A stretch of DNA of 64,000 nt, from NCBI GenBank assembly GCA_017622815.1, contig JAGAQH010000027.1, positions 124,001 to 188,000 of the forward strand. Direction: 5' to 3'. The notes under the pieces were generated by a model. The model saw nothing but the letters and a program-made list of their open reading frames with translations. It did no database searches and was not told where the DNA came from. Below are positions 19,393 to 60,861 of this stretch, piece after piece. Every line of letters begins with the position of its first letter. Positions within the stretch are counted from its first letter, which is position 1. The position numbers and the translations under genes were made by a program. This DNA is from Bacteroidaceae bacterium (GTDB lineage: Bacteria; Bacteroidota; Bacteroidia; Bacteroidales; Bacteroidaceae).

Positions 19393-20448
19393 ATGAAGAA
19401 GAAAGCATATCTTTTCTGTACAGTGCTGACGGCATTGTGCATAGCGTCATGCTCCGGAAACGAGAAGAAGCAGAACAACGACGCCCTGAAAGTAACCACA
19501 GAAACCGTATGCCTAAGCACCGAAGCAGATGCCTCATCCTATGTGGGTGTAGTAGAAGAGGGTACGTCAGTGGCAGTCAGTTTCACCGGCATGGGCATGA
19601 TAAGGCAGGTGCATGTGAGCGAGGGACAGGCCGTGCGCAAGGGCCAACTGCTGGCCGAGATGGACAAAACCCAGGCTGAGAATGCCCTGGCCATGGCACA
19701 GGCCACGCACAAGCAGGCCACCGATGCTCTGGAGCGTATGAGGAAACTGCACGAGAACAAGTCGCTGGCCGACATGAAATGGGTGGAGGTGCAGAGCAAG
19801 GTGGAACAGGCCGAGGCTTCGCTCTCTGCCGCCAGGAAGATGCTTGAGGACTGCAGCATCCATGCACCCATGGACGGTGTTGTGGGCAAGAAGTTCCTCA
19901 GTGCCGGCGAGACCGCCCTGCCCTCCCAGCCTGTGGTGAGCATACTGAGCATCCGCAAACTGAAGGTCAAGGTCAGCATCCCCGAGAGGGAGATTGCCGT
20001 CATATCGCCCTCCACGCCCTCCAGCCTTACCATAGAGGCGCTGAACGGCAAGCAGGTCAGCGGTGGCGCTATTGAGAAAGGGGTAGTTGCCGATGCAGCC
20101 ACTCACACCTACGACATACGCATAAACATAGACAACCCCGATGGCGACATCCTGCCCGGTATGGTAGCCAAGGTGGCATTGTCCGGCCAGACAGGACAGC
20201 ATGGCATGTACCTGCCCATACGCTCCGTACAGCAGACGGCTGGCGGCAACCTCTTCGTATGGACCATGGCGGACGGCAAGGCCCACAGAAGCAACGTGTC
20301 CGTGGGACAGACCGTTGGCGACCGCATACACATCCTTTCCGGCCTGTCCGAAGGAGACAAGGTTATCGTGGAGGGATACCAGAAGGTGAGCGAAGGGACG
20401 AGGGTGACAAACGGAAAACGGAAAACGGAAAACGGAAAACTGCGGTGA
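19393..20448 (+). CDS. RND efflux periplasmic adaptor lipoprotein (membrane fusion protein)
   Basis: Bridges an inner-membrane RND pump and an outer-membrane channel. 351 residues. A lipoprotein signal with lipobox IASC (Cys20) anchors it to the inner membrane. The biotinyl/lipoyl-like half motifs flank a short helical hairpin (about 75-140, with MAQATHKQATDALERMRKL and VEQAEASLSAARKML), and a beta-barrel and membrane-proximal domain follow. AcrA/MexA-type order. The last codons are unusual: the C-terminus VTNGKRKTENGKLR is encoded by an (AAAACGG)n tract that also occurs at the 3' ends of other genes, so the natural end has probably been altered. The pump gene follows 117 bases downstream. 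Confidence 0.88.
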   Translation: MKKKAYLFCTVLTALCIASCSGNEKKQNNDALKVTTETVCLSTEADASSYVGVVEEGTSVAVSFTGMGMIRQVHVSEGQAVRKGQLLAEMDKTQAENALAMAQATHKQATDALERMRKLHENKSLADMKWVEVQSKVEQAEASLSAARKMLEDCSIHAPMDGVVGKKFLSAGETALPSQPVVSILSIRKLKVKVSIPEREIAVISPSTPSSLTIEALNGKQVSGGAIEKGVVADAATHTYDIRINIDNPDGDILPGMVAKVALSGQTGQHGMYLPIRSVQQTAGGNLFVWTMADGKAHRSNVSVGQTVGDRIHILSGLSEGDKVIVEGYQKVSEGTRVTNGKRKTENGKLR

Positions 20449-20552
20449 GCGGTTTCTCGGGAAAGTCCGAGTTTTCCGAATAATCCGAGTTCTCTGAGTT
20501 CTCCGAGCAAAGGAAAAACTTTCAGTTTTCCGTTTTCCCCTTTCCGTTTTCA
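20409..20552. repeat. Repeat mosaic: AAAACGG tract, 9-bp tandem array, inverted AAAACGG tract
   Basis: 20409-20443 is a run of AAAACGG units read in the coding frame of the adaptor 3' end. 20466-20510 is five units of an exact 9-bp period beginning TCCGA (20466, 20475, 20484, 20493 as TCTGA, 20502). 20523-20552 is the AAAACGG tract in inverted orientation (TTTTCCG). The same combination, with different details, recurs at the pump/TolC junction (23632-23780). Confidence 0.8.
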
Positions 20553-20565
20553 AATTTATACTATC

Positions 20566-23500
20566 ATGGCATTCAAAACCAACTCATGGATAGCGTGGCC
20601 CATCCAAAACTATAAGATTACGGCCTTTATAACGGCCTTGTTTCTGGCCTTCGGCATCTGGGCCATGTATGTGATGCCCAAGGACGAGTTCCCAGCCTTC
20701 ACCATCCGTCAGGGCGTGGTCATTGCCGTAATGCCGGGCGCCACGGCCGAGGAGATAGAGGAACAGGTGGCACGCCCCCTGGAAAGGTATATCTTCACCT
20801 ACAAGGAGGTGAACCGCAGCAAGACCTACTCCACCAGCCAGAACGGCATGTGCATCGTTATGGTGGAGTTCCAGGACGACCAGAACAACCTCACCCCCGT
20901 GTGGAGCAAGATGAAGCACGGACTGAACAACTTCAAGTCCTCGCTGCCCAAAGGTGTCGTGGCCCTGGTGGTCCAGGACGATTTCGGCGACACCAGCGCT
21001 CTGCTCATCACCGTGGAAAGCGACCAGCGCTCCTACCGCGAATTGCAGGGCTATAGCGACGAACTGGCCGACCGCCTGCGCCGTCTGCCCAGCGTGAGCA
21101 AGGTGCAGCAACTGGGCGAGAAGAAGGAGCAACTGACCATCTGCGTGGACAGAGAGCGCCTGGCAGCCTATGGCATAGGCCAGTCGGCCCTCATCCAGAC
21201 TCTGACAAGCCAGGGACTTACCACCATGAGCGGAACCCTTTCAACGCCGCAAAAGAACCTGAACATACACGTGGCTCCGTCCATCAATTCCGAACAGGAA
21301 ATCAGCGAGCGCATCATCCTCACCACGCCCGACGGCAAGACGGTGCGCGTGCGCGACATTGCCTCGGTGCAGAGGGAATACGACCTGAGCGACGGCTACA
21401 TAGAGTCCAACGGCAAGCGTTGCGTCATCCTGTCGCTGGAAATGCTGAAGGGCAACAACATCGTCATGTTCGGCGAGGATGTGGACGAGATACTGGACCA
21501 GTTCCGCCAGGACTGCCTGCCCGAGGACGTGCAGATGCGCCGCATCACCGACCAGCCCGAGGTGGTGGGAACCAGCGTGAGCGACTTCCTGCGCGACCTG
21601 CTCATCTCCATGGTCATCATCGTGGCCGTAATGATAGTGCTCTTCCCCATCCGAAGCGCCATGGTGGCAGCCCTCACCATACCCCTGTCCACCTTCGTCA
21701 GCACGGGTATCATGTATGCCATGGGCATAGAACTGAACATCATCACCCTGGCATGCCTCATCGTGGTGCTGGGCATGATTGTGGACAACAGCATCGTGGT
21801 CATAGACGGATACCTGGAGTATCTGGCTGGCGGCATGAGCCGCATGGAGGCCGCCATAAAGAGCGTGCAGCAGTACTTCTGGCCCATGCTTCTGGCCACT
21901 GTGTGCATCTGCGCCATCTTCTTCCCCATACTCCTCACCCTGAAGGGCGAGGCCGCTGATGCCATACGGATCTTCCCCCCGACCATCACCATCAACCTGA
22001 TGGTTTCCCTGGTGGTGGCGGCGGTAATCATACCCTTGCTCAACGTGGCCATCATACGCAAGGTGAAGGAGAAGGTTCCCGGCAAGCGCGACATCACCGA
22101 CTGGGTGCAGGACTGGTACGACAGGACCCTGGCGTGGAACTTCCGCCATCCGTGGCTCACCATCGCCGGGAGCATAGTTCTGGTGGTGGCCACCGGGGTG
22201 CTCTTCCCGCTTCTGAAGATGCGCCAGTTCCCCTATGCCGACCGCAACCAGTTTGCCGTGGAGATATACCTGCCGGAGGGCAGCGGCCTGGAGGAAACGA
22301 AGAAGATTACCTACGAACTGACCGGCATCCTCGAGAAGGAGGAGAAGGTGACGGGCGTGACCAGTTTCATTGGCTGTTCCTCACCGCGCTTCCACATGTC
22401 CTACGCTCCAGTCATTGCAGGCAAGAACTTCGCACAACTCATCGTAAACACCGAGAGCATAGAGGCCTCGCTGGAACTGCTGGACAAACTGGCTCCCAAG
22501 TACAGCAACCACTGGCCGGGTGCCTACGTGCGCTGGAAGCAGATGGACTATCTGCCCGTGCCCACCTATGAGTACCGTTTCTATGGCAACAACATAGACT
22601 CCATACACAAGGCGGCCGACATGCTCATGCAGGAGATGCGCACCATTCCGGAACTGGAATGGGTGCATACCGACTATGACCGTCCCTCGCCCCTTGTGGA
22701 AGTCTCTCTGGACCCCGTGGCCTCCAGCCAACTGGGCATTTCCCGCACCTCTGCCGAACTGCAACTCATGCTCCAGACGGGCAAGATGCAGATTGGTTCC
22801 ATCTGGGAGGCGGGCAGCGTGGACGGCAAGAGCCGTACCTACGAGGTGCCTCTGGTTCTCAAGGACCGTGCCACCGAACAGATGACCTTCAGCGATGTGG
22901 ACGACACCTACCTGAGCACTGCCACAGGGGCTTCCGTGCCTCTCAGGCAGGTGGCCGACGTGGTTCCCCGATGGGGACACACCAAGATAGTGCACCGCAA
23001 CGGCGAGCGCTGTATCTCGGTTACCGCCGAGGGCAAGCGCGGAACCTTTGCCCTGGACATACAGAACCGCATCATCGACTACATCGGCCAAATGCACCTG
23101 CCCCAGGGAGTTCGTGCCGAGGTGGGAGGCGAGACGGAGGAGAACAACGACATCACCCCCGACATAATGGCAGGCCTGGGCATGGCCGTGGTGCTCATCT
23201 TCTTCTTCCTGCTGTTCAACTTCCGCAAGTTCTCCATTGCCATCATCTGCATCGTGGCCATCAGCCTGGGCATGCCGGGCGCCATAGTGGGCCTGCTCAT
23301 TGCCAACAAGATTCTGGGACTCACCAGCCTGTTCGGTTTCATCACCCTCATGGGCATGATCATGCGCAACGAGATACTCATCTTCGAGCATGCCAACGAG
23401 AAGATGGCCGCCGGCATGTCGGCCAAGGAGGCCGCCTTCGATGCCGGCAAGCGCCGCATGGTGCCCATCTTCCTGACCACGGCCACCACGGCCGTTGGCG

Positions 23501-25110
23501 TAGTGCCCATGATCATTGCAGGCAGCAGTTTCTGGATGCCCGTGGGCATCACCATCTTTGCCGGCGGTGTGGGCATGCTCCTGCTCGTCACCACAGTACT
23601 GCCCGTGGTGTATTGGAAACTGTATGAAACAAAACGGAAAACGGAAAACGGAAAACGGAAAACGGCGCGTGAGCCTGGAGCGATGAGCGGAAATTCTGAA
23701 AACTCCGACTATTCAGAGCACTCCGAGTCGGCTGTTACCACTCCCCTCCATAGAGGGAGGGGTTTGGGGGTGGGTCTTTTCTTCTTCTGCTGCCTTACCA
23801 TGCAAGCTCAGCCTCGTACCCTCTCCCTTGAGGAGTGCCTGCAAAATGCAGCCACACGCAACCGCACCCTGCAGAATGCCGCCCTGGAAATTCAGAAGGC
23901 TGGAGAACAGAAAAAGGAAGCCTTCACCAAGTACTTCCCCGAAATATCCGCCAACGTCATGGCCTTCCATGCCTTCGACAAGATGGTGAAGGCCGACGGT
24001 TACTACCCCCAGGAACTGGCGGCACTGGAGCAGATAAACCCGCAACTGGCGGCTCTGGCTGGACAACCCTTCTCCGTACGTGAGATGGACCAGGCCTATG
24101 CCGTGATGGGAACGGTGACACAACCCCTCTTTGCCGGAGGACAGATAGTGAACGGCAACCGCCTGGCCGCCATAGGACAGGATGTGGCGAAACTGCAGAT
24201 GGAACTGCAAACCAAGGACATCCTGCAGAAGGTGACGGAGAACTACTACCAGATAGTGAAACTGAAACTGAACCAGGCCACCGTCAGTGCGGCACAGGCA
24301 CAGTTGCGTGCCATATACAAAGAGGTGCAGACCTATGTGGATGCCGGCGTGACCACACGCAACGACCTGCTTCGCGTGCGCTTGGAACTGCAACGCCTCT
24401 CCTCGGACAGCCTCACCCTCAGCAACGCACACCACGTCATGTGCCTGCTGCTGGCCCAACAGATAGGTATGGCAGGAGAGCAGGTGGACGTAAGTCTGAA
24501 CCTGCCCACCTCCTCGGAGAATCCCATCACCTACTACATCGCACCCGAACAGGCTGTCGCCGCACGTCATGAACTGGCCATGGCACAGAAGGGTGTGGAA
24601 GCCGGCAAACTGAAGGTGCGCATGGAAGTGGGCAAGCGTCTGCCCACCGTGGCCGTAGGCCTTGCCCTCAGCCACACAGGCATCGGAGGTCTCTCCCAGG
24701 GCACCAAGTCCATGATGGACAACACGGTGAACAACGGCATGGTCTTCGGTACCGTCAGCGTGCCCCTCACAGCATGGTGGGGCGGAGCACATGCCATACG
24801 CCGCGAGAAACTTGCCCTCAGACAGGCCGACAACCAGTTGCAGGATGCACGCGAACAACTCATCATAGACATCGAGGCCTCCTGGTCTTCACTCGTAGAG
24901 GCATACAAGCAGATAGCCATAGCCATGACCAGCGTGGAGGAGGCAACGGAGAACATGCGCATGTCTCTGGACAAATACCGCATGGGCACAGAAATCCTCT
25001 CCGACCTGCTGGAGAGCGAAACCCTCCTGCGTGAAAGCCAAAACCGCCTCGCTCAGGCACAGGCAGATTATATGACAAAACGTGCCGATTACCTGAGGAA
25101 GACGAGGTGA
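20566..25110 (+). CDS. RND efflux pump and TolC-like outer-membrane protein in one open reading frame
   Basis: 1514 residues. Residues 1-1020 form an AcrB-like proton-driven RND permease: TM1 near 14-35, large periplasmic loops, and the relay motif LGMIVDNSIVVIDGY near 401-415 with a single Asp where many pumps have two. The second loop carries VEIYLPEGSG, and the C-terminal TM bundle ends TTVLPVVYWKLYE. Residues about 1023-1075 are a repeat-encoded linker. From about 1080 (RTLSLEECLQNA) a complete TolC-family protein follows, with two OEP repeats. A signal-like core GVGLFFFCCLTMQAQ precedes it, and an in-frame ATG at 23683 (GGAG seven bases before) could start TolC separately. So either a real pump-channel fusion or two proteins made from one open frame. 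Substrates unknown. Confidence 0.85.
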   Translation: MAFKTNSWIAWPIQNYKITAFITALFLAFGIWAMYVMPKDEFPAFTIRQGVVIAVMPGATAEEIEEQVARPLERYIFTYKEVNRSKTYSTSQNGMCIVMVEFQDDQNNLTPVWSKMKHGLNNFKSSLPKGVVALVVQDDFGDTSALLITVESDQRSYRELQGYSDELADRLRRLPSVSKVQQLGEKKEQLTICVDRERLAAYGIGQSALIQTLTSQGLTTMSGTLSTPQKNLNIHVAPSINSEQEISERIILTTPDGKTVRVRDIASVQREYDLSDGYIESNGKRCVILSLEMLKGNNIVMFGEDVDEILDQFRQDCLPEDVQMRRITDQPEVVGTSVSDFLRDLLISMVIIVAVMIVLFPIRSAMVAALTIPLSTFVSTGIMYAMGIELNIITLACLIVVLGMIVDNSIVVIDGYLEYLAGGMSRMEAAIKSVQQYFWPMLLATVCICAIFFPILLTLKGEAADAIRIFPPTITINLMVSLVVAAVIIPLLNVAIIRKVKEKVPGKRDITDWVQDWYDRTLAWNFRHPWLTIAGSIVLVVATGVLFPLLKMRQFPYADRNQFAVEIYLPEGSGLEETKKITYELTGILEKEEKVTGVTSFIGCSSPRFHMSYAPVIAGKNFAQLIVNTESIEASLELLDKLAPKYSNHWPGAYVRWKQMDYLPVPTYEYRFYGNNIDSIHKAADMLMQEMRTIPELEWVHTDYDRPSPLVEVSLDPVASSQLGISRTSAELQLMLQTGKMQIGSIWEAGSVDGKSRTYEVPLVLKDRATEQMTFSDVDDTYLSTATGASVPLRQVADVVPRWGHTKIVHRNGERCISVTAEGKRGTFALDIQNRIIDYIGQMHLPQGVRAEVGGETEENNDITPDIMAGLGMAVVLIFFFLLFNFRKFSIAIICIVAISLGMPGAIVGLLIANKILGLTSLFGFITLMGMIMRNEILIFEHANEKMAAGMSAKEAAFDAGKRRMVPIFLTTATTAVGVVPMIIAGSSFWMPVGITIFAGGVGMLLLVTTVLPVVYWKLYETKRKTENGKRKTAREPGAMSGNSENSDYSEHSESAVTTPLHRGRGLGVGLFFFCCLTMQAQPRTLSLEECLQNAATRNRTLQNAALEIQKAGEQKKEAFTKYFPEISANVMAFHAFDKMVKADGYYPQELAALEQINPQLAALAGQPFSVREMDQAYAVMGTVTQPLFAGGQIVNGNRLAAIGQDVAKLQMELQTKDILQKVTENYYQIVKLKLNQATVSAAQAQLRAIYKEVQTYVDAGVTTRNDLLRVRLELQRLSSDSLTLSNAHHVMCLLLAQQIGMAGEQVDVSLNLPTSSENPITYYIAPEQAVAARHELAMAQKGVEAGKLKVRMEVGKRLPTVAVGLALSHTGIGGLSQGTKSMMDNTVNNGMVFGTVSVPLTAWWGGAHAIRREKLALRQADNQLQDAREQLIIDIEASWSSLVEAYKQIAIAMTSVEEATENMRMSLDKYRMGTEILSDLLESETLLRESQNRLAQAQADYMTKRADYLRKTR
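23632..23780. repeat. In-frame repeat mosaic joining RND pump and TolC
   Basis: In order: AAAACGG units (23632-23666) encoding TKRKTENGKRKT; a 9-bp tandem array TCTGAAAAC, TCCGACTAT, TCAGAGCAC, TCCGAGTCG (23695-23730) encoding a tripeptide repeat S-E/D-x; then the C-rich/G-rich hairpin in inverse orientation (23738-23776, CCACTCCCCTCC-ATAG-AGGGAGGGG) encoding TTPLHRGRGLGVG. All of it is read through without a stop. Confidence 0.85.
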
Positions 25111-25190
25111 ACAGCCACTGGCCGGCAAGGGGCCGACACACTCCCTTGCGTCTCCGCCACGGAGGAAGGAAAAACAGGTGTCCCGATGAC

Positions 25191-25220
25191 AAGGGCGTGT
25201 TCTCGTGAGGACACGCCCTT
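25191..25220 (+). terminator. Hairpin after the RND/TolC gene
   Basis: 10-bp stem AAGGGCGTGT/ACACGCCCTT with a 10-base loop, 80 bases after the stop at 25110, followed by GTTGT. Probable terminator of the efflux operon. Confidence 0.65.
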
Positions 25221-25261
25221 GTTGTCCCGGGTGACTCGTCCTTGTTGTCCCGGGTGACTCG
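25217..25261. repeat. Direct repeat, 22-base unit with 23-base period
   Basis: Two perfect copies of a unit starting CCTTGTTGTCCCGGG and ending GTGACTCG (25217-25238 and 25240-25261), directly after the terminator stem and overlapping its last bases. The rest of the gap to 25386 shows no gene. Confidence 0.75.
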
Positions 25262-25386
25262 CCCCTATCGTCTAGGAGGACTAAAATACGTTGTCGCGAC
25301 AATAAAAGAAGGGTACACAGAAAATGCATAAAAACCTTTGGCGGACACCAATAATAACAAGCGTCAGAAAGTACAATAATACAACA

Positions 25387-25417
25387 CAGGCCCGACTTCG
25401 CAATGAAGCCGGGCCTG
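25387..25417 (-). terminator. Terminator of the methylmalonyl-CoA decarboxylase operon
   Basis: Minus-strand stem CAGGCCCGGCTTC/GAAGTCGGGCCTG, one mismatch, 5-base loop, followed on the minus strand by TGTTGTATTATT; 42 bases beyond the stop of the beta-subunit gene. Confidence 0.7.
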
Positions 25418-25459
25418 TATTATTCTAACCATCTTGCCATGAAGGCAAGACATAAGGCA

Positions 25460-26743: not shown

Positions 26744-26765
26744 GATTATGGAAATGATGCTATGT

Positions 26766-27473: not shown

Positions 27474-27503
27474 TTGTACGTTATTTAAAATGGGTTACAC
27501 GAC

Positions 27504-36483: not shown

Positions 36484-36610
36484 CTACTTTTGCAATTATT
36501 ACAGAGCATTAAAACAAACTTTAACGCACTGAAGAGGCCAAATGTCATTTCTGCATTGCACAAGTGCAATTATTTCCCTCGCGCATGAGCGTTTCTTCGG
36601 CAAAAAAGCG

Positions 36611-36618
36611 TAACTTTG
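36611..36618 (+). promoter_or_regulatory. -7 element (TAACTTTG) deciding the queA start
   Basis: TAACTTTG ends 17 bases before ATG 36636. The upstream in-frame ATGs (36564, 36585) precede it and so are excluded as starts on this promoter. Confidence 0.55.
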
Positions 36619-36635
36619 TACGCAAAATAAGTATG

Positions 36636-38555
36636 ATGGAGCCAAAGCACATACACATAAAGGATTACAACTACCCTCTCCCAGAGGACCGCATAGCGAA
36701 GTTTCCCCTTGCACGGCGCGACACGAGCAAATTGCTGGTGTACCGCCACGGGGACATCAGCCAGGACACATTCCATCACCTGCCCGACTATTTGCCCAAG
36801 GGTGCACTGATGATTTTCAACAACACCCGAGTGGTCAGGGCAAGGCTTCACTTCAGGAAGGCAGTGACGCCGTATTGCGAGGCGCCTCACAATACGTTGC
36901 AAGAGGCCTCGCAACACGTTGCATCGCCCCTTGCCTCGGGAGGCGTTTCCGACAAGCCCCAGGGGGCACTCATAGAGATATTCATCCTGGAACCTGCCCT
37001 GCCTGCCGAGTATCAGGAAAACTTCCTCAGCCGAGGCCGGTGCTCGTGGTACTGCCTGGTGGGCAACCTGAAGAAGTGGAAGACCGGTTCCCTGCACCAG
37101 CAGATAAGGATTGGCGAGGAAACCGTAACCCTCTCAGCCACCCGTGGCGAGGCGCACGGCACGAGCCACCAGATAGACTTCACATGGGACACCGGCCACA
37201 CCTGGGCGGAAATCCTTGAAGCCACGGGCGAACTGCCCATCCCTCCCTACCTGAACAGAAAGACTGAGCAGAGCGACCTCACCACCTACCAGACCGTGTA
37301 CTCCAAGATAAAGGGCAGTGTGGCCGCCCCCACGGCAGGCCTGCACTTCACACCCGAGGTGCTGGCAGAACTGGATGCCCACGGCATAGAGCGCGAGGAG
37401 GTGACCCTGCACGTTGGTGCCGGTACCTTCAAACCCGTTAAAAGCGAGGAGATTGGCGACCACGACATGCACACGGAGCACATTGCCGTGCACCGCACCA
37501 CCATAGAAAGGCTCATAGCGCACGAAGGTGCCGCCATTGCCGTGGGAACAACCAGCGTGCGCACCCTGGAGAGTCTCTACTACATGGGCATTCTGGCCAT
37601 GCAGGGCAAGGAAGACCTGCATGTGGAGCAATGGATGCCATATTCGGAAACTACGACTTCAGAGGTGGATACCTGCCAGGCCCTGCAAGCCCTGCTGAGA
37701 TACATGGACGAGAGGAATCTGGACATCCTGCACTCCTCCACCCAGATAATCATAGCACCGGGATACAAGTTCCACATCGTCAGGATGATGGTGACCAACT
37801 TCCACCAGCCGCAGAGCACGCTCCTGCTCCTTGTCAGTGCCTTCGTACAGGGCAACTGGCGCAGCATCTACGACTACGCCCTGGAGAACGACTTCCGCTT
37901 CCTCTCCTATGGGGACAGCAGTTTGTTGATGGGACCCTCCCCCAACGGACCCTCCCCCAACCCCTCCACAAGGGAGGGGAGTGGTAACAACCAACTCGGG
38001 AGCACATCTGCAGTACATCATACTCCCCTCCCCTGTGGAGGGGCTGGGGGTGGGTCCGCTGATGGCGGGTCCATTCTCCCCCTCGTTGACCCCGCCGGCA
38101 ATGTCATTGGCCAAGCCACACGCGCCGAATGCCACAACGGTTCCATGCTTCTGCATCCCGTGGTGCACCTGCATGTCTTCAATGAGGAAGGCGAACTCTA
38201 CCTGCAAAAGCGCCCCATGTGGAAGGACATACAACCCGGCAAGTGGGACACGGCCGTAGGTGGGCACGTGGACTTCGGCGAGGACATCCACACCGCACTC
38301 CTGCGAGAGGCACGCGAGGAACTGGGCATCAATGCCGAGGGAAACGAACTGGTGCAGATGTATGAGTTCCACTCCGAACGCGAACACGAACTTGTCTATG
38401 CCCACAAGATTGTCTATAACAAGGAGATAAAGCCCAGCGAGGAAACGGACGGCGGACGCTTCTGGACAATGCAGGAAATACGCGATGCCATCGGCCATGG
38501 CATACTGACACCCAACTTCGAACAGGAATTTATGCGGCTCTTTGAAAAGCAATAA
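36636..38555 (+). CDS. queA: QueA (S-adenosylmethionine:tRNA ribosyltransferase-isomerase) fused to a NUDIX hydrolase domain
   Basis: 639 residues from ATG 36636 (ATG 36633 is equally possible). Residues 1-430 are QueA, which builds the epoxyqueuosine ring on tRNA: LPEDRIAKFPLARRDTSKLLV, MIFNNTRVVRARL, the PTAGLHFTPEVL block and YKFHIVRMMVTNFHQPQSTLL. About 33 residues (about 76-108, VTPYCEAPHNTL... to SDKPQ) are inserted where normal QueA runs straight from RARLHFRK to GALIEIF; they are encoded by tandem palindromes. Residues about 432-485 are a linker encoded by an inverted pair of C-rich hairpin repeats. The C-terminus (486-639) is a NUDIX domain resembling Idi/YfcD types, with full NUDIX box (GHVDFGEDIHTALLREAREE, then LGI). 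Fusion in one open frame is directly seen; whether the protein is made whole is unknown. Confidence 0.88.
   Translation: MEPKHIHIKDYNYPLPEDRIAKFPLARRDTSKLLVYRHGDISQDTFHHLPDYLPKGALMIFNNTRVVRARLHFRKAVTPYCEAPHNTLQEASQHVASPLASGGVSDKPQGALIEIFILEPALPAEYQENFLSRGRCSWYCLVGNLKKWKTGSLHQQIRIGEETVTLSATRGEAHGTSHQIDFTWDTGHTWAEILEATGELPIPPYLNRKTEQSDLTTYQTVYSKIKGSVAAPTAGLHFTPEVLAELDAHGIEREEVTLHVGAGTFKPVKSEEIGDHDMHTEHIAVHRTTIERLIAHEGAAIAVGTTSVRTLESLYYMGILAMQGKEDLHVEQWMPYSETTTSEVDTCQALQALLRYMDERNLDILHSSTQIIIAPGYKFHIVRMMVTNFHQPQSTLLLLVSAFVQGNWRSIYDYALENDFRFLSYGDSSLLMGPSPNGPSPNPSTREGSGNNQLGSTSAVHHTPLPCGGAGGGSADGGSILPLVDPAGNVIGQATRAECHNGSMLLHPVVHLHVFNEEGELYLQKRPMWKDIQPGKWDTAVGGHVDFGEDIHTALLREAREELGINAEGNELVQMYEFHSEREHELVYAHKIVYNKEIKPSEETDGGRFWTMQEIRDAIGHGILTPNFEQEFMRLFEKQ
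36871..36930. repeat. Tandem 22-24 bp palindromes inside queA
   Basis: First unit TATTGCGAGGCGCCTCACAA (near-perfect palindrome) then TA; second unit CGTTGCAAGAGGCCTCGCAAC; a third, decayed, CGTTGCATCGCCCC. They encode the extra residues YCEAPHNTLQEASQHV and keep the reading frame. Confidence 0.75.
37931..38061. repeat. Inverted pair of C-rich/G-rich hairpin repeats, in frame in queA-nudix
   Basis: The forward copy (about 37943-37989: CCCTCCCCCAACCCCTCC-ACA-AGGGAGGGG then AGTGGTAACAACC) and the inverse copy (about 38020-38058: ACTCCCCTCCCC-TGTGG-AGGGG then GGGGGTGGGTCC) face each other across about 30 bases. A doubled GGACCCTCCCCCAACG precedes the first. The AGTGGTAACA(A/G)CC flank is shared with the copy at 23738. 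The whole block codes for a Gly/Pro/Ser-rich linker. Confidence 0.85.
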
Positions 38556-41633: not shown

Positions 41634-41702
41634 CAGTCCTCTTAGTAGGAGGACTACAGTCCTTATAGTATGAGGATTGCAGTCCTCATAGTAAGAGGAC
41701 TG
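41634..41702. repeat. Three tandem 23-bp palindromes with covarying arms
   Basis: Units at 41634-41656, 41657-41679 and 41680-41702, each AGTCCTN-loop-NAGGAYT (AGTCCTC-TTAGTAG-GAGGACT in the first). Period is exactly 23. The arms change between units but remain paired. Immediately before them lies another stem CGTCTCCC/GGGAGACG (41594-41632). The array ends 14 bases before the GH20 stop codon. Confidence 0.85.
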
Positions 41703-44167: not shown

Positions 44168-44374
44168 GGACCCCCTCAATCCCCCTGCAGGGGGAGGAGA
44201 AGGTGAGTGGATGAACGATGAACGTTTAACGTTTAACGATGACAGGAAAGCAGGGACGCTGCTGCAGCGTCCGCTTAGTTCACGCATAGTTTATTGTTCT
44301 CGGACGCTACACGCAGCGTCCCTACTTTACTTACTCGCAGTTTTCCGTTTTCCGTTTTCACATTTCCGTTTTAC
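44168..44374. repeat. Composite repeat module 1 (downstream of GH29)
   Basis: In plus-strand order: C-rich hairpin (44168-44202, ATCCCCCTGCAGGGGGAGG); small AACGTTT repeats (44220-44238); palindrome E (44251-44273, GGACGCTG-CTG-CAGCGTCC, GTAGGG-type orientation); palindrome F inverted (44301-44325, GGACGCT-ACACGC-AGCGTCC then CTAC); TTACTCGCAG (44331-44340); TTTTCCG tract (44341-44374), whose last bases supply the GH29 stop codon. The same order recurs at 45714-45951. Confidence 0.85.
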
Positions 44375-45713: not shown

Positions 45714-45951
45714 GAAGCCCCTCCCCCATGCCCCTCCCAGTGAGGGAGGGAAGCATAATGTATTGGGGATGAGGTTAGTACTTGTTTGTTGTTTTGTAGG
45801 GACTCGGCATGCCGAGTCCGCTTCTACTCTGTTTTTCGGACACGGCATGCCGTGTCCCTACCATGCTCTCGGTTACTCGCAGGTTTTCAGGTTTCAGGTT
45901 TCAGGTTTCAGTTCTCCGTTTTCCGTTTTCACCTTTCCGTTTTCCGCTCGT
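45714..45951. repeat. Composite repeat module 2 (between GH29 and the transglutaminase-like gene)
   Basis: In plus-strand order: C-rich hairpin (45714-45773, CCCCTCCC-AGT-GAGGGAGGG then AAGCATAATG); palindrome C (45796-45820, GGACTCGGCATGCCGAGTCC); palindrome D inverted (45837-45861, GGACACGGCATGCCGTGTCC then CTAC); CATGCTCTCG; TTACTCGCAG (45873-45882); a 7-bp TTTCAGG array (45883-45910); TTTTCCG tract (45911-45948) ending 3 bases from the next stop codon. Same order and direction as module 1. Confidence 0.85.
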
Positions 45952-53359: not shown

Positions 53360-53420
53360 ATATATGTTCTTATTAAAGACTACTCTGATTGGCATGCGCC
53401 AAATTACCTTAGGGCCAAAA

Positions 53421-53454
53421 AGGGGCAAGCACAACTAACGGAATGCTTGCCCCT
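53421..53454 (-). terminator. Terminator after the SusC-SusD-lipoprotein operon
   Basis: Minus-strand stem AGGGGCAAGC/GCTTGCCCCT, 14-base loop, followed by TTTTTGG on the minus strand, 38 bases beyond the lipoprotein stop. Read-through would extend to the M6 gene. Confidence 0.75.
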
Positions 53455-53491
53455 GATTTCTATTTAAAGTTTTCTGATTGACAGAAAGGTA

Positions 53492-54376: not shown

Positions 54377-54410
54377 AACTTTATTTCTTGTTTGTTAAGC
54401 AAATGTTAGA

Positions 54411-55940
54411 TTAGTAACCGGGGTTCTGCTGACCCTTCAACTGGGGGTTAGAGTCCATCTCAGTCTTGGGGATAGGCCAGGTGAAGCGGTAGTCGTCCTT
54501 GTCGTACTTCATGGCACGGCCGGCAGCAACCACTACAGCGTCCAGAGCAGGATTCTCAGAATGGTCTGCATAGCGCTGGAAGCCGATGTTCCAACGGCGC
54601 AGGTCGCTCATACGGAAGCCTTCACCGATAAACTCGCGCTCGCGCTCGCCCTGAACGGCGGTCAGCAACTGGTCGGCAGTGAAGTTACCTGCGGTGTGAC
54701 CGCTGATACGGTTAGCCAGGAAGTCGTTCATGTAGGCGTTAGCCTCAGCCAAAGTTGCAGAGTTGTGTGCACCTGCCTCGGCAGCAATCAGGTACTGCTC
54801 TGAGAGACGGAACAACTTGGGCATGTTCACATAGTTGTTCTCCTCGGTGGTACGCAGGGCGGGGTTGCCGGGGTACTTGAGGAATACATAAGATGCATAG
54901 AGGGTACCCTCGATGTCCAGTCTCCAAACCTTGAAGTAAGAATCGAAACGAACGTCGCCATCGGGGAAGTTTGCCAGAGTGTAGAATGTGGGGATGTAGT
55001 CGGCAGAGGTCTCGTTGGTGCTTGCGGTATAAGCGGCACCGGTAGAAGACAGACCCTCCTGCTTGCTCATGAAGCTACGCATGATGATCTCGTTGCTCTC
55101 GTCGTTAACCCACATTGAGGGATACTCCTCGATGGTAGCCAGAGTGTAAACGCCAGACTCGATAACCTCCTTTGCCTTGGCAAAAGCGGTCTCGTAATCG
55201 CCCTTGACCAGAGCCACACGAGCCTGCATGGCGGCAACGGCGTGAGAAGAGAGGTAGATAGCGTTGGGGGCTACATTTGAAGCGTCAACGGTCTCATACT
55301 CCTTCAGACCACTGTAGGCAGCCTCCAGATCGCTCTCGATCAGAGCGTATGTAGCATCCAGAGAACTACGGCTGGGATATGCGTTAACATCACCGGTGGG
55401 GTTGTACTTTGTAACCAGCATGGCACCGGTACCTTCCTTGGTAGCGTCTACCTCTGCATAAGGCTCAGAGAAGTGGTCTGCCAGGAAGAAGTAGCAGTAG
55501 GCACGCAGGAAGTGACCCTCGGCCTTGTAGCGGTTGATCAGGGCCAGGTTAGCCTCGTCATATGCACCGGACTTGGCCATTTCGCCAGCCTTTTCAATCA
55601 GATAGTTGGCAGTAGCAATACGGCTATAGCAACCGGCAAACATGCTCTCGATGTCACCATCTGCAGATGTCAGCAGACCGTTAGAGAATGTACCTACACG
55701 GTTACCGTTGCTGATAAGACCGTGGAACTGGTCCATCTGGATGTCCTGATATGTAATCCAGCCGCCAGTGTTCATGCCACGCAGGGCAGAGTAAACGCCT
55801 GCACGGAAACGACCAAGGTCGTTCACGTTCTGGACTGCTGTGGTCTCGTCGATAGAGCCGAAAGGCTTCTTGTCCATTTCACAGGATGAGAGAAGGCCAA
55901 GACCCAGCACCAGCATCAATGAAATATATATTTTCTTCAT
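54411..55940 (-). CDS. SusD/RagB family outer-membrane lipoprotein
   Basis: 509 residues, lipobox LLSSC (Cys20). TPR-rich SusD fold: N-terminal DKKPFGSIDETTAVQNVNDLGRFRAGVYSAL, LINRYKAEGHFLRAYCYFFLADHFSEPY, and the C-terminal GEREREFIGEGFRMSDLRRWNIGF and KDDYRFTWPIPKTEMDSNPQL, which are the RagB/SusD signature. It acts as the lid and ligand-binding partner of the SusC protein encoded 43 bases upstream. The C-terminal block and paired M6 peptidase suggest a RagB-like peptide system more than a starch one, but the ligand is not determined. Confidence 0.92.
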   Translation of the reverse strand: MKKIYISLMLVLGLGLLSSCEMDKKPFGSIDETTAVQNVNDLGRFRAGVYSALRGMNTGGWITYQDIQMDQFHGLISNGNRVGTFSNGLLTSADGDIESMFAGCYSRIATANYLIEKAGEMAKSGAYDEANLALINRYKAEGHFLRAYCYFFLADHFSEPYAEVDATKEGTGAMLVTKYNPTGDVNAYPSRSSLDATYALIESDLEAAYSGLKEYETVDASNVAPNAIYLSSHAVAAMQARVALVKGDYETAFAKAKEVIESGVYTLATIEEYPSMWVNDESNEIIMRSFMSKQEGLSSTGAAYTASTNETSADYIPTFYTLANFPDGDVRFDSYFKVWRLDIEGTLYASYVFLKYPGNPALRTTEENNYVNMPKLFRLSEQYLIAAEAGAHNSATLAEANAYMNDFLANRISGHTAGNFTADQLLTAVQGEREREFIGEGFRMSDLRRWNIGFQRYADHSENPALDAVVVAAGRAMKYDKDDYRFTWPIPKTEMDSNPQLKGQQNPGY

Positions 55941-55983
55941 ATTGTTTTATGCTTCTTTTTTCCTTAAATGATTTGATTTACCA

Positions 55984-58965
55984 TTAGAATGTCAACTCCA
56001 TACCGAACACGAACTGACGGGTGTTGGGGTAGTTGAACTTAACGAGGTTGATGTCGGGCTCGGGATCGTAACCAGAGAACTTGGTAGCAGTGAAGAGGTT
56101 ACGGCCTACGAAGAATACCTTGGCATTCTGGATACCCTTGGTAGCCTTCATCCACTTCTCGGGGAAGCTGTACTGAACAATCAGGTTCTTCATGCGCAGG
56201 AATGAAGCATCCTCCAACAGGTGGGTATCATACTGTACCTGCTCGCCGTACTTGGGAATGTCGGTGATGTCGCCGGGCTTGGTCCAGATGTTCAACATAT
56301 CAACACTCTGGTTGAAAGAAGTACCCTGGTTGGCGTTCTTCAGGAAGTAGTTGTCGTTGTTGGTCATGTACTTGCCTGCCTGCCATGCGAAGTCAGCGGT
56401 AATAGAAAGGCCCTTCCAAGAGAAGCTGGTACCGAAACCACCGCTCCAGGGAGCAAAACGCTGCTTGCCGGTGAACTTGGAGTCGCGCTCCTCGTTGTAA
56501 ACCTTTGTCAGGTTACCGTCGATATCGTACCACATGGGCTTACCGTCGCGAGGGTCAACACCTGCATACTCTACCATGTAGAACTCGCCATAGGGCTTGC
56601 CCACCTCGAGCTTCTGACCGGTGTTGGCGATGATGTACTCGTCGCGGCCGGCGAACAACTCTGTAATCTCGTTCTTGTTGTAGTTGACGTTAGCCTTTAA
56701 GGTCCAGTCGAAGTCGTTGCTCTTCAGGATCTTAACGTTCACGTCGGCATCAAATCCCTTGTTGACCATGGCACCGATGTTGCCCATACCGCCACCGAAA
56801 CCGGTTGTATAAGAGAAGGGAATCTTCATGAGCATGTCAGTGGTCTTTCTGCGGTAAGCATCAACATTCAGGACAACGCGGTCCATGAAGCCGAATGTAA
56901 CACCAGCGTTGAATGAACCAACCTTCTCCCATGTCAGAGTGCTGTTGCTGGGGTTAGAGATACCCATTGAAGACTGGCCGTTGTACATTGAACCAGTACC
57001 GAACAGACCATAGTAGTCGTAAGAACCGGCACCTGTAGAGTTACCTACCAGACCGTATGTGGCACGAGCCTGCAGGAGGTCCAACCAGTCAACATCCTTC
57101 AGGAAGTTCTCCTTCTTCAGATCCCACATACCACCTACAGAGTAGAAGTGACCCCAGCGGTGACCGGGAGCGAACTTAGAGCTGCCGTCGGCACGGTAAG
57201 ATGCATCCAGGAAGTACTTGCCGTCGAAGTCGTAGGCAAAGGTAGCGAAGAATGAGTTAAAGCTTTCCTCTGCACGAGAGTCAGAGAGATTGCCGATAGC
57301 GATAGAAGTACCGTCGGTAAGACGGAGCTGGCGGGGATCGGTCTGACCTTCAGTGAATACACCGAATGAACGGCTTCTTGAGAAGATAGACTCCTGGCCG
57401 AGCAGGGCAGAGAAGTTGTGGCCCTTAACCTTCTTGCGGTACTCAATGGTGTGAGTGAAGGTGTAAGAGGCATAGCGGGAGAAACTGTTATATACATAAC
57501 CCTCACTTGCTGCAACAGAAGAACCCATAGGAGTGGTGAATGCCTCATAGGGGATATAGCGGTTGTCCTGAGTGTAATCGTAACCGTCCATAGCCTGCTG
57601 GGCACGGATGGTCAGACCCTCGATGGGGTTCAACTGCTCGAATGCGTTCAGCATCAGAGTCAGGTTGTTCTTCTTATAGCTGCGGTTCTCGTTAACGAAG
57701 CTGGGATGACTCAAACCGCTGTACTTCAGCTTGTCTGCACGGTCGCCCCAGATGATGTTACCGTTTTCATCAAAAGAGTAATAGTTGGGAGCATCGTAAG
57801 GCAGGGCCAGACGAGAGAAGATCATGGGGTTGGAGGTGTAGAGGCCGTCTGTTGCCTCAGCCTCGTTATTCTGCTGGTAAGAGTTGGTACCGAGGTTAGC
57901 CTGTACACCAGCCTTGAACCAACGGTTCAGACGAGCCTCCACGTTGGCACGCAGAGCCTCACGGTGCATCTTGGACTGCTCGATCAGACCCTCCTGGCTG
58001 TGGTGGTTGAAAGACAGGTAGTAGTTGATGTTCTCGCTACCGCCGGTCAGGGCAGCGTCTACGGTGTAGGTGGGAGCATTGTTGCTCAGAACCTCATCGC
58101 GCCAGTTGGTGCTGATGCCGTAGTTGTTTACCAGATCCTTGACGCTCTGGCTAACGGGCTGGCCGATCATGTCGCGGAACTGGATGTACTGCTGAGAGTT
58201 CATCATCTGCAGACCGTCGGATACGGGAGTAGAGAAACCGTACTGACCCTTTACAACCAGATTGGCCTTCTCGTTCAACTTACCCTTCTTGCTGGTGATG
58301 ACGATAACGCCGTTAGCAGCACGAGAACCGTAGATGGCGGTAGAGGCAGCATCCTTAAGAACGGTGATGTTCTGGATGTCGCTGGGGTTCAATGTGTTGA
58401 ACATTGTAGAAGAAATGGGAGCACCGTCCAGAATGAACAGAGGTGTGCTGCTGGAGTTGATAGAGTTGATACCACGCAGACGGATAGAGGCGCTCTTTGA
58501 GGGGTCACCGCTTGAAGTCAGTACGCTCAGACCAGAAACCTGACCTGCAAGAGCGTCGGTGAAGTTGGGAGTAACAGCCTTCTCCATCTTCTTGTTGTCA
58601 ACGGTAACAACAGAACCTACCAGAGAACCGAGCTTCTTGGCGCTACCGTAACCGGTAACAACGAGTTCGTCCATCATCTCCTCGGCGGTCTGCATCTTCA
58701 CGAGCATGCCGTTCTTGGCGGGACGTTCCATGGTCTCCATGGCAATGTAAGAGAACACCAGGGTCTTGCCGGCCTCTGTGCGGATCTTGAACTTACCGTT
58801 CATGTCGGTCACAGCTGCAGTCTTTTCACCCTTTACCTTTACAGAGGCGCCGATGAGGGGCTCGCCATCAGCGGCAGACACTACTGTACCAGTGATTACT
58901 GTCTGCGCCCAAGCGGCAATGGTTGCCACCATGCACAGAAGCATCAATGAGAGTCTTTTTTTCAT
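55984..58965 (-). CDS. SusC/RagA family TonB-dependent outer-membrane transporter
   Basis: 993 residues. Signal peptide to about residue 21 (ATIAAWAQ), a CarboxypepD regulatory-like domain (22-105, ITGTVVSAADGEPLIGASVKVKGEK), the TonB-box/linker (ELVVTGYGSAKK), plug domain (about 115-230, with ALAGQVSGLSVL and the SusC-typical SASIRLRGINSIN, FILDGAPI, ASTAIYGSRAANGVIVI) and a 22-strand barrel ending in aromatic FGMELTF. It forms a lidded TonB-powered pump with the SusD protein downstream. Leader about 180 bases. No sigma/anti-sigma or hybrid regulator gene is adjacent. Confidence 0.94.
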   Translation of the reverse strand: MKKRLSLMLLCMVATIAAWAQTVITGTVVSAADGEPLIGASVKVKGEKTAAVTDMNGKFKIRTEAGKTLVFSYIAMETMERPAKNGMLVKMQTAEEMMDELVVTGYGSAKKLGSLVGSVVTVDNKKMEKAVTPNFTDALAGQVSGLSVLTSSGDPSKSASIRLRGINSINSSSTPLFILDGAPISSTMFNTLNPSDIQNITVLKDAASTAIYGSRAANGVIVITSKKGKLNEKANLVVKGQYGFSTPVSDGLQMMNSQQYIQFRDMIGQPVSQSVKDLVNNYGISTNWRDEVLSNNAPTYTVDAALTGGSENINYYLSFNHHSQEGLIEQSKMHREALRANVEARLNRWFKAGVQANLGTNSYQQNNEAEATDGLYTSNPMIFSRLALPYDAPNYYSFDENGNIIWGDRADKLKYSGLSHPSFVNENRSYKKNNLTLMLNAFEQLNPIEGLTIRAQQAMDGYDYTQDNRYIPYEAFTTPMGSSVAASEGYVYNSFSRYASYTFTHTIEYRKKVKGHNFSALLGQESIFSRSRSFGVFTEGQTDPRQLRLTDGTSIAIGNLSDSRAEESFNSFFATFAYDFDGKYFLDASYRADGSSKFAPGHRWGHFYSVGGMWDLKKENFLKDVDWLDLLQARATYGLVGNSTGAGSYDYYGLFGTGSMYNGQSSMGISNPSNSTLTWEKVGSFNAGVTFGFMDRVVLNVDAYRRKTTDMLMKIPFSYTTGFGGGMGNIGAMVNKGFDADVNVKILKSNDFDWTLKANVNYNKNEITELFAGRDEYIIANTGQKLEVGKPYGEFYMVEYAGVDPRDGKPMWYDIDGNLTKVYNEERDSKFTGKQRFAPWSGGFGTSFSWKGLSITADFAWQAGKYMTNNDNYFLKNANQGTSFNQSVDMLNIWTKPGDITDIPKYGEQVQYDTHLLEDASFLRMKNLIVQYSFPEKWMKATKGIQNAKVFFVGRNLFTATKFSGYDPEPDINLVKFNYPNTRQFVFGMELTF

Positions 58966-59149
58966 AAATACTGATTTGTGTTGATTAATTATTAGTATAT
59001 TTGTTAACTCTTTGTTTCTTCTTTACCTTATCAACAATACCTTATATATAATATATACAGGTTATCTCCATCAGTTCACGGTCTCAGCAAAACGACCGTT
59101 TGTTCGGGACGTATAGACCCTTTTGACTTATTTTAACGCAATTTGGGCA

Positions 59150-59181
59150 CAAAAGTACTAAATTTAATCAACGTGAGCAAA
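59150..59181 (-). promoter_or_regulatory. Promoter of the SusC operon
   Basis: Minus-strand TTTG (59178-59181), 20 bases, TACTTTTG (59150-59157): a clean match. About 180 bases of untranslated leader follow, A+T rich, with no gene or clear hairpin in 58966-59149. Confidence 0.75.
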
Positions 59182-59221
59182 GGAATTGTGAAAAAATGTT
59201 GTTCTTATTACTACTTTTTGG

Positions 59222-59518
59222 CTATTTGTGACAATTTGTTAGCGAACTGATATCCGCGCCCTCATTTTGCTTACATTTTGCTACCATTTGTCTAAAGCCG
59301 CAACATCTGTAAAACGTGCTTTTGCTGACCCCAAGTATCTTGCAAGCCTCTTTTACGCCATATTCCCTGTGCAATTGTCGCGCCAACTCTGCTTTCCCTT
59401 GCATTTTGTTATGCCTGCCTTTTGCCCCTTTGGGGCGTCCGAGAGGCTTGCCCTCGTTTCTCCCATAACCGTGTGTAAAAAAGTATGGCAACCCGTCGCA
59501 TTGTCTTCGGGTTGCCAT
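59222..59518 (-). CDS. Small HTH protein resembling the C-terminal domain of a serine recombinase (probable remnant)
   Basis: 98 residues from ATG 59518; ATG 59575 would give 117 but runs into the upstream inverted repeat. The recognisable part is PLGRPKGAKGRHNKM and then AELARQLHREYGVKEACKILGVSKSTFYRC, matching the GRPKGS-linker plus helix-turn-helix that ends DNA invertases and resolvases. The catalytic N-terminal domain (about 130 residues with the active serine) is absent, so it cannot recombine DNA by itself. It is either a decayed invertase or a free-standing DNA-binding protein. Repeats with strong dyads lie directly upstream (59552-59653), as expected for binding sites. It sits just upstream of the SusC promoter. 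Confidence 0.6.
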   Translation of the reverse strand: MATRRQCDGLPYFFTHGYGRNEGKPLGRPKGAKGRHNKMQGKAELARQLHREYGVKEACKILGVSKSTFYRCCGFRQMVAKCKQNEGADISSLTNCHK

Positions 59519-59551
59519 ACCGTCTTTTTCCCGGATGGAAGAAAACACACT

Positions 59552-59653
59552 CCAGTACCGATTTTTGTACCGCAATATCGGTACTGAAGTACCACCGTGT
59601 CGGTACTGGAGTACTGCCGTGTCGGTACTGGAGTACCACCGTGTCGGTACTGG
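59552..59653. repeat. Inverted repeat plus 22-bp tandem palindrome array
   Basis: CAGTACCGAT (59552-59561) is paired with ATCGGTACTG (59577-59586). Overlapping it, units of exactly 22 bp start at 59579, 59601 and 59623, with a partial fourth at 59645; each contains the palindrome GGTACTGRAGTACC or a one-pair variant and ends GTGT. The array lies immediately upstream of the HTH gene on the minus strand and is followed to 59697 by nothing recognisable. Confidence 0.85.
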
Positions 59654-59697
59654 CTAATGTTTTGGACAGGAGAATAAGGGGGTACGGATGGCTCTGT

Positions 59698-60861
59698 CTA
59701 CTTCCCGGCATAAAACCTACGGTTCAACTTGCCGTTGGGGGTGCGCTCTATGCGCTCCACCTGCTGATAGAATAGAGGGACCTGATATGGTTGCAGGCAG
59801 GATTTGAGGAACAGGGCCAAGGGTTTGGGGGAATATTCCACGCCCTCTGCTGGGACGACCAGGAGTTTCAGTGCCTTGCCTGTGATGGGATGCTCCACAG
59901 GGACGCATATACAATCGGCAACAGACGGGAAGGTAAGAGCCGCATTCTCCACGTCAGTAGGGGCAACCTTATAACCGCCCACATTGATGACATCGTCCCT
60001 CCTGCCCAGGATGTGCAGACGGCCGTGCTCGTCTATGCGGCCATTGTCGGCCGTGTAAAAGGTGCCTTCGCGCAGAACACGGCATGTAGAGGCCTCATCG
60101 CCCCTGTAACCGCTCATCAGCATCGGGCCCTGACAGGCTATCTGCCCCTCAGGAGTGATGAAGACACGGGAATGGTGCATGGGACGGCCCACACAACCGG
60201 GGATGCACTCCCCGTCGTTGAAATTGTAGGTACACAGAATACCCGTTTCGGTGGATGCGTATGTATTGTAGAGGCGCGTATTGGGCAGTATGGTGCACAA
60301 CTGCTGCATGTCGGCCTGCGATATGGCGGCGGCACCGGTTTCCAGGAACTCTATCCTGTCGGCATACCGTGCAAGGCGTCCGGCATCGAACCGCAACAAC
60401 ATGCGTATGGCGGCAGGAACAAGGAACGTGGCCAGATGCGAGGAGGGATAGTCGAAGGCCGAGAGGAAGGCATCCATATCCTTCAGCCCGTCAAGGACTA
60501 TGAGCGTGCCGCCGCACATGAGCACGGGGAATATCTTGGACCAGCAGCCCAGGTGGTCCAAGGCTCCGGCCAGGACAAACACCGTGTCGCTGGAGAAACC
60601 CTGTGCCTTTATCAGGTTCTCGCTATTGGCTATCACCGCCTGCTGGCTGACAAGGACATCCTTGGCTTGCCCCGTGGTGCCCGTGGTGTGCAGGCAGAAG
60701 GTCTTGTCCCACCCCTCTCCAAGCAGGGGGATGGGAAGCGGACGGCACTCCTTCATCATGAGATAGAGACGGGAATAGGTTATCTCTTGCCCATGATGGA
60801 TGATGGCTGGTTTGTCGGGAAACTTCTGCGCCGAGGCAAAGACATGGTCCAATATGGTCAT
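59698..60861 (-). CDS. Short AMP-dependent acyl/aryl ligase (N-terminal region deleted and bridged by a repeat)
   Basis: 387 residues; ordinary relatives have 450-550. Present are the start of the fold (LDHVFASAQKFPDKPAIIHHGQEITYSRL), the P-loop LHTTGTTGQAKD (58-68), YNTYASTETGILC, the hinge LHILGRRDDVINVGGYKVAPTDVE and the catalytic lysine in RTPNGKLNRRF. But only about 58 residues precede the P-loop instead of about 140-170: some 85-100 residues of the N-terminal domain are missing. The junction (residues 40-53, RPLPIPLLGEGWDK) is encoded by a C-rich hairpin repeat. Starts by ATGA overlap with the ACP gene stop, so it likely serves that ACP in the lipid/polyene pathway, if still active. Confidence 0.82.
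   Translation of the reverse strand: MTILDHVFASAQKFPDKPAIIHHGQEITYSRLYLMMKECRPLPIPLLGEGWDKTFCLHTTGTTGQAKDVLVSQQAVIANSENLIKAQGFSSDTVFVLAGALDHLGCWSKIFPVLMCGGTLIVLDGLKDMDAFLSAFDYPSSHLATFLVPAAIRMLLRFDAGRLARYADRIEFLETGAAAISQADMQQLCTILPNTRLYNTYASTETGILCTYNFNDGECIPGCVGRPMHHSRVFITPEGQIACQGPMLMSGYRGDEASTCRVLREGTFYTADNGRIDEHGRLHILGRRDDVINVGGYKVAPTDVENAALTFPSVADCICVPVEHPITGKALKLLVVPAEGVEYSPKPLALFLKSCLQPYQVPLFYQQVERIERTPNGKLNRRFYAGK
60703..60745. repeat. C-rich/G-rich hairpin repeat inside the AMP ligase gene
   Basis: TCCCACCCCTCTCC-AAGCA-GGGGGATGGGA in plus-strand reading; a diverged member of the 7694/37943 family. It is read in frame as part of the ligase. Confidence 0.6.

Follow-up and report, generated by a model that had tools for sequence, protein, structure and literature searches.

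The window analyzed here is a stretch of 64,000 nucleotides (nt) from Bacteroidaceae bacterium (contig JAGAQH010000027.1 of assembly GCA_017622815.1, positions 124,001 to 188,000), which lies within a 2.57-Mb metagenome-assembled genome of 42 contigs and 88% completeness, called the own genome below. Two of its long open reading frames (ORFs) join genes in a single frame: the ORF at 20566..25110 (+ strand; 1514 aa) fuses a resistance-nodulation-division (RND) pump (Pfam ACR_tran) to TolC (Pfam OEP), and that at 36564..38555 (+), whose real start is near 36636, fuses QueA (Pfam Queuosine_synth) to a NUDIX domain. The nearest named relatives of QueA are found in uncultured Bacteroidaceae of ruminant guts. 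The linkers of both fusions contain a C-rich hairpin, which is one end of a two-ended, probably mobile element of the general order [hairpin, GGACCC]-interior-[inverted hairpin, GGGTCC], similar to miniature inverted-repeat transposable elements (MITEs) and to REPINs, the paired forms of repetitive extragenic palindromic sequences (REPs). An earlier note on this DNA had proposed that palindromic repeats otherwise intergenic here are also read in frame inside four genes, which holds at three of the places and fails at the fourth, an AMP ligase. Numbers preceded by G denote the genomes used for comparison, L individual loci and C contigs of the own genome, and scores in bits are those of a profile of the C-rich end.

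In-frame elements inside genes

At the QueA/NUDIX junction the in-frame repeat that had been placed at 37943-38061 is borne out, and more strongly than proposed: a left (B-type) end at 37947..37996 (-; 50 bits) and a right (A-type) end at 38006..38057 (+; 52 bits), inverted relative to each other, form one complete element in frame, and a 15-bp tandem duplication of the outer end (GGACCCTCCCCCAAC twice) lies at 37932..37961 (+). QueA and NUDIX are separate genes in L070 to L075, and in L066 (98% identical) and L068 the two ends seen in the window enclose two small cargo genes. In L066, QueA reads through the left end and finds its stop codon within the cargo, and in both loci the NUDIX start codon lies within the cargo, its frame reading through the right end. 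By eye, the cargo DNA (genes at L066:2879-3545 and L068:2835-3525) is more alike between the species than QueA is. The only matches of the cargo genes were two weak, short ones to viral contigs, with none in a plasmid collection or, in a search run without a positive control, in 81 genomes.

In the case of the QueA interior, a 22-bp palindromic array is indeed read in frame in a loop of the protein (36871..36923, +), as had been noticed for 36871-36930. By sequence its family is not that of the arrays at 41634 and 59579, to which it had been assigned; its match is an intergenic array of the own genome, C20:140627-140678 (E 3.7e-5; reversed control 0). At least seven extra residues occur at this loop in 15 of 82 aligned rows (80 named loci, the window and one reference), and other loops of QueA in the same alignment also bear inserts, of which many consist of hairpin or heptamer sequence. 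Element ends recognized by the profile number 14, spread over nine of 129 QueA ORFs, a set in which some records were reached twice (122 different among the 127 rows of tree length); the reversed set gives none. On the 122-row tree the nine element-bearing rows need at least six changes, five of them forced by well-supported branches, and other Bacteroidaceae of ruminants have separate in-frame insertions in QueA. In the QueA of L047 (G010), a repeat of NRTEAPSGAVGGATT type occurs four times over and makes up an insert of 92 residues.

The in-frame repeat reported at the pump/TolC junction (23738-23776) was borne out by a solo C-rich end at 23725..23776 (+; 36 bits) within the 1514-aa ORF, which replaces the TolC start codon and the n-region of its signal peptide. 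The remainder of the linker consists of (AAAACGG)n heptamers, including the array (AAAACGG)5 at 23631..23665 (+), and of 9-mers, and related arrays recur elsewhere in the genome. Pump and TolC are separated by a stop in 26 of the 28 relatives with both genes, and in G017 they are fused via a C-rich hairpin. Moreover, G082 and G087 hold the complete element in frame at this site, the window and G081 keep the right end alone, with heptamers and 9-mers as the left part, and G085, G086 and G088 have separate genes without the element. The linkers in the window's clade measure 192, 210, 246 and 165 nt, all multiples of three. Cleavage at an internal signal peptide, once the protein has been translocated, could release TolC from the fusion.

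Other in-gene loci are a U32 peptidase, an ABC-F ATPase, NAD-dependent DNA ligase (LigA), DNA polymerase I (PolA) and a helicase with the Pfam domains AAA_11/AAA_12. The names LigA, PolA, YheS-like and, below, LeuC are presumed from Pfam or PDB matches. The complete in-gene copies in QueA/NUDIX, U32 and ABC-F share one reading frame and give peptides like GPLPNPPARGGSSYAKLPTEHHTPLPCGGAGGGS. At the U32 site the own genome, G081 and G082 all hold element sequence at the same position, read in a different frame in G081 and present in G082 as half an element plus a nested insert, and the aligned DNA of G085, G086 and G004 contains no element. Sister genomes thus read one site in different frames, which suggests that selection acts to preserve an intact reading frame and not a given peptide. 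At the ABC-F site the own genome and G081 hold different palindromes, both open. In related species, the extra segments of QueA, pump/TolC and U32 are either missing from the orthologues or replaced there by others, and neither this check nor that for second copies (below) goes against the earlier proposal.

Structure, placement and turnover of the element

The hairpin core CCCCTCC-N-GGAGGGG occurs 72 times in the own genome, against three occurrences of the reversed pattern, and is found in 52 of 81 genomes, namely 44 of 49 of the genus and eight of 32 of other families, with counts of 151 in G015, 112 in G018 and 100 in G003. The profile search was run on 856,927 bp of the own genome (33%), a non-random sample of contigs previously listed as holding matches, with a profile made from 23 of the 24 exact-pattern sites of a first sample, which match by construction (the one unoriented site was dropped). 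Opposite-strand matches to one palindrome were removed before counting (42 rows became 38 in one count). This search places 84 ends at 54 loci, against zero when the sequence is reversed. Second copies of the elements exist, as cores, as profile matches and, for the other palindromes, as arrays elsewhere in the genome.

Inverted pairs, counted where no more than 1.5 kb separates the two ends, make up 30 of the 54 loci; most of them (27) measure 87-223 bp, and the others 306, 514 and 584 bp. The outer ends of the pairs are GGACCC and GGGTCC. An A-type (ACATNATACT) and a B-type (TTGTAACCACT) inner tail, one each, are present in nine of 12 pairs examined, the other three being unscorable by pattern. 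Most copies are short forms without the DUF559 gene discussed below, and some carry other cargo. The earlier note had not remarked on this paired structure, nor on the copies with cargo, the gene for DUF559 or the replacement of one hairpin type by another in a single slot. The pair at C10:5898-6481 has a 584-bp interior full of other palindrome families.

With regard to placement, the outer end lies a median of 19 nt from a called gene (50 nt or less in 53 of 71), and the inner side is within 50 nt of one in none of 68 cases, the gene calls being our own and made from codon usage. Loci outside called genes number 47 of 54, and the other seven are in frame inside genes. Since 76% of the sequence is called coding, random placement would put about 41 of the 54 in genes, so genes are strongly avoided. 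Among 12 pairs, the three in genes have two, three and four stop-free frames of the six, and the other nine have from none to two.

The family is expanded in the window's clade. A peptide census (E<=1) counted 64 in the own genome, 46 in G081, 34 in G082, 18 in G087 and eight in G083, falling to three in G086, two in G015, one each in G026 and G085, and none in G004, G017, G018, G032 and G088. Within the window, intergenic C-rich hairpins had been listed at four places, three of which the profile recovers as solo ends: 7694..7735 (-; 30 bits), where the stem subtype differs in G081; 17818..17871 (-), a weak match (13.8 bits, E 0.015); and 45717..45770 (-; 26 bits), proposed as 45714 and the same in G081. 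The fourth, at 44168, is missed by the profile, and a sequence search of the own-genome sample gives it a single weak match (E 0.053).

Close relatives differ at these sites. From 27 own loci tried against G081 or G082, 13 were comparable; seven of these differ in element type or subtype, between flanks 87-99% identical, two differ in interior or nesting and four are the same. The same slots host heptamer/9-mer arrays or C-rich elements, one replacing the other between the own genome and G081 or G082. One example is the heptamer/9-mer array with inverted arms at 20409..20564, where G082 has a C-rich element. At 16483..16493 (+) only a GACCCACCCCC footprint is present, where G081 has a complete 108-bp element. 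These differences at the same sites support the view that the dispersed palindromic elements spread, including into genes, and lift this part of the earlier proposal above conjecture.

A DUF559 nuclease gene between hairpins

The 514-bp pair, on contig C8, encloses a single gene that encodes a 125-aa DUF559 protein (L219:5671-6045; Pfam E 6.9e-29), and this form has the same ends as the short elements. In the same slot of G081, a DUF559 protein 48% identical to it (L323:9930-10280; Pfam E 9.7e-34) is encoded between hairpins of another family, GACCCCCTCTGCCCTTTGGGCATCTCCCC. The slot precedes an aconitase-family gene, which we take to be LeuC, whose start codon lies inside the element in the own genome and in G081, giving the N-termini MSDIVSTPLPCGGVGGGS-VCLFDKIW and MKEIVISNTSDGSPHRGGDAQRAEG-VCLFDKIW, respectively. 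Among solved structures in the PDB, relatives of DUF559 are 3hrl (E 5.5e-16) and, more distantly (E 0.004), 3r3p, which is entitled 'Mobile intron protein'.

The association between hairpins and DUF559 extends to other phyla. A plasmid search returned 32 records with DUF559 relatives, of which 18 were fetched and one (L360, a DUF559 domain in a large protein) was set aside. A C/T-rich hairpin with a perfect stem of at least 7 lies within about 250 nt of 13 of the remaining 17 genes, where about one would be expected, since the sequence around them (94,270 nt) holds 10 hairpins of this kind. The genes sit at positions such as sufB|sufC, paaD|paaZ, between two transhydrogenase subunits, yqeY|dnaG and inside hpa clusters. 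Their inverted-repeat score is clearly above the control for L354 alone (19 vs 10) and marginally for L350 (12 vs 11), so the hairpin arms are often not near-identical. Titles and abstract openings of the open-licence papers found on DUF559, COG2852 or PF04480 mention neither hairpins nor repeats.

We consider it reasonably probable that the hairpin elements are moved by DUF559 cutting followed by copy repair and are tolerated in linkers and at gene borders. From the gene inside the element and the hairpins beside its relatives we infer that the nuclease would cut the hairpin or the target site, and that the break would be repaired by copying another element, thus installing and swapping hairpins in fixed slots. 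Genes would survive because hairpins are often stop-free, because they sit at borders or in inter-domain linkers, and because the cargo can supply a stop codon to the upstream gene, as for QueA in L066, or a start codon to the downstream one, as for NUDIX in L066 and L068 and, in G081 and the own genome, for the aconitase-family gene. Without an interior, and where the frames match, adjacent genes would be joined into one protein, as with QueA-NUDIX and pump-TolC. More tentatively, and with somewhat less confidence, we propose a new class of mobile element that would be spread across phyla, a DUF559 gene between inverted C/T-rich hairpins, which would insert at gene borders and in operons, spare the function of flanking genes through its own stop and start codons and through stop-free hairpins, shed nuclease-free hairpins in great number, and make linkers and fusions; many C/T-rich intergenic hairpins of bacteria would be its remains. 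The findings as a whole describe a route from non-coding mobile DNA to protein, by way of linkers, new gene ends and fusions, with its stages caught in close relatives. They also point to a testable function for the widespread, unexplained DUF559 family, that of moving hairpin elements, and to a possible source of the C/T-rich hairpins between genes. If this holds, annotation of such genomes will have to reckon with repeats that are translated and with start codons owned by an element.

The main rival remains a process without a dedicated enzyme, in which replication forks would stall or break at the hairpins, and ordinary recombination or a switch of template between repeats would copy and exchange them. 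It agrees with the swapping of subtypes between flanks of 87-99% identity, with the interchange of C-rich elements and heptamer arrays in the same slots and with the deletion that left the GACCCACCCCC footprint, but it leaves unexplained both the DUF559 gene inside the element and the hairpins beside 13 of the 17 DUF559 genes elsewhere, and we judge it unlikely. A REP/REPIN system, in which hairpins are moved by a Y1 transposase (RAYT/IS200-type), would fit the inverted dimers that the hairpins form close to gene ends and the copies inside genes, both of which are typical of REPs (PMC3733652), and PF01797 is matched in 41 of the 81 genomes searched. However, this match is missing from the own genome, which is 88% complete, and from G015 and G018 despite their 151 and 112 hairpin cores, and the ends carry no GTAG/CGTC tag. 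RAYT/Y1 was rejected as the mover, having been found neither in the own genome nor in these two high-copy relatives, and we hold this reading to be quite improbable.

The hairpins could also be terminators or regulatory leaders kept for expression, the in-frame copies being read-through accidents. The median distance of 19 nt from outer end to gene fits such a role, and a side effect on expression is possible; as an explanation of the family it is very improbable, given the two-ended structure, the cargo, the swapping of types and the copies in the QueA, PolA, LigA, ABC-F and U32 genes, as well as the absence of any match to the 4227 Rfam families at gathering score in the window, a result by which a known RNA family was also rejected. 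Finally, chance C-rich coding sequence or misjoined contigs would make the elements an artefact of assembly or of low-complexity drift. The ligase segment may indeed be drift and every genome used is a metagenome assembly, but the same fusions appear in the separately assembled G081, G082 and G087 and the reversed-sequence controls gave none, which makes this reading scarcely credible.

Several points weigh against the reading of mobile elements driven by DUF559. Movement itself was not observed, no target-site rule was found, and target-site duplications were not seen by eye in slot comparisons of relatives. Only one DUF559 gene is present in the 33% sample of the own genome, and among the plasmid genes four of 17 (L352, L358, L359 and L361) fail the strict hairpin test, with hairpins seen by eye; moreover, the 17 are not independent, as they include three hpa clusters, two from Picosynechococcus and three from Sphingomonas. 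QueA and NUDIX are fused without an element in L067 (90% identical), and so are pump and TolC in G021; therefore the element is not needed for fusion. Between L068 and its near-twin L072 about 45 nt are replaced, with no clean insertion, perhaps by recombination between species. The cargo of L066 and L068 is not DUF559 but two other genes, which belong to no known family, as no convincing score was obtained for them from Pfam, NCBIfam or PHROGs. To these are added the metagenomic origin of all genomes used and the fact that the in-frame reading is known from DNA alone, no peptide having been seen.

Among known systems, 3r3p is presumably the homing endonuclease I-Bth0305I, of the EDxHD kind. 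DUF559 is distantly related to 3r3p, the elements of the own genome and G081 enclose an endonuclease gene, and elements are swapped in fixed slots, all of which is reminiscent of homing elements; here, however, there is no intron or intein, the ends are hairpins, and homing is putative. Mitochondrial double-hairpin elements consist of paired GC-rich hairpins that enter genes; they are organellar, and the likeness is one of description.

The published bacterial systems are compared by description. Rickettsia palindromic elements are palindromic, dispersed and in frame inside unrelated protein genes (PMC10969869), and the seven in-gene loci of the 54 here likewise lie in unrelated genes, with element-free orthologues at pump/TolC, QueA/NUDIX and U32; the present elements differ in being from Bacteroidales, mostly intergenic, two-ended, linked to DUF559 and able to fuse neighbours. 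The earlier note had rightly named Rickettsia for in-frame palindromes, an incomplete list, as REPs and enterobacterial repeat units are also in print. REPs form inverted hairpin dimers near gene ends and, in several species, sometimes also lie inside genes, including those for DNA polymerase I and DNA ligase (PMC3733652). The present elements share their paired inverted palindromes (30 of 54 loci) and mostly intergenic location (47 of 54), with GGACCC/GGGTCC ends in place of the GTAG/CGTC tag and a DUF559 gene in place of the Y1 transposase. The enterobacterial repeat units RU-1/2/3, from a different host, are MITE-like, 100-170 bp long and open in frame inside annotated genes (PMC2759123), and repeats read in different frames have also been described (PMC2267715). 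Within Bacteroidales, the BrickBuilt MITE of Porphyromonas gingivalis has 23-nt repeats and is described as always intergenic (PMC4596501), unlike the present elements, which also lie inside genes, and REP counts in Bacteroidota have been listed (PMC12306157). No report of in-frame palindromic elements in Bacteroidales was found in the open-licence papers searched, in agreement with the earlier note.

The ligase segment and other palindrome families

The segment of the AMP ligase ORF (59698-60861, with the expected Pfam domain) that had been proposed as the fourth in-frame repeat, 60703..60745 (-), was rejected as a repeat: the profile misses it, and no further copy came up when its sequence alone was searched against the own-genome sample. 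The window ligase and its 98% relative lack about 65-80 residues present in the five closest orthologues, and the bridging residues may be native.

The two intergenic palindromic arrays of the window that had been named as repeats both have other copies in the own genome: the 23-bp array at 41634..41701 at C8:31240, C18:52180 and C18:54437, and the 22-bp array at 59567..59653 (named as 59579) at C18:106723 and C8:65432. A further 23-bp array family, of GACTCGCCCTTGTTGTCCCGGGT type, lies at 25189-25264 in the window and is copied between genes many times over, the own sample giving 23 rows. Additionally, a palindrome family with GGACNCGGCATGCCGNGTCC beside CTAC, like GTAG-type REPs, occurs at 4774-4793, 7965-7984 and 45800-45857, with 78 strand-hits in the own sample, where each perfect palindrome counts twice, once per strand.

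Nested in the arm of the C-rich hairpin is an insert of 83-85 nt, seen in 22 copies, six of them in G081, two in G082 and the others in the own genome. The own copies are at C8:11616, 58298, 64418, 68657, 68681 and 94286; C20:52543, 102231 and 150016; C28b:21613; C10:3224; C26:1473; and C29:2129 and 75932. Its 20 predicted pairs, 12 of them changed on both sides (a count made without a shuffled control), suggest a putative conserved folded element. A PhoH-family gene of the own genome (C20:52493-53500, L231, - strand) ends in a copy of this insert, which gives the protein a new C-terminal tail.

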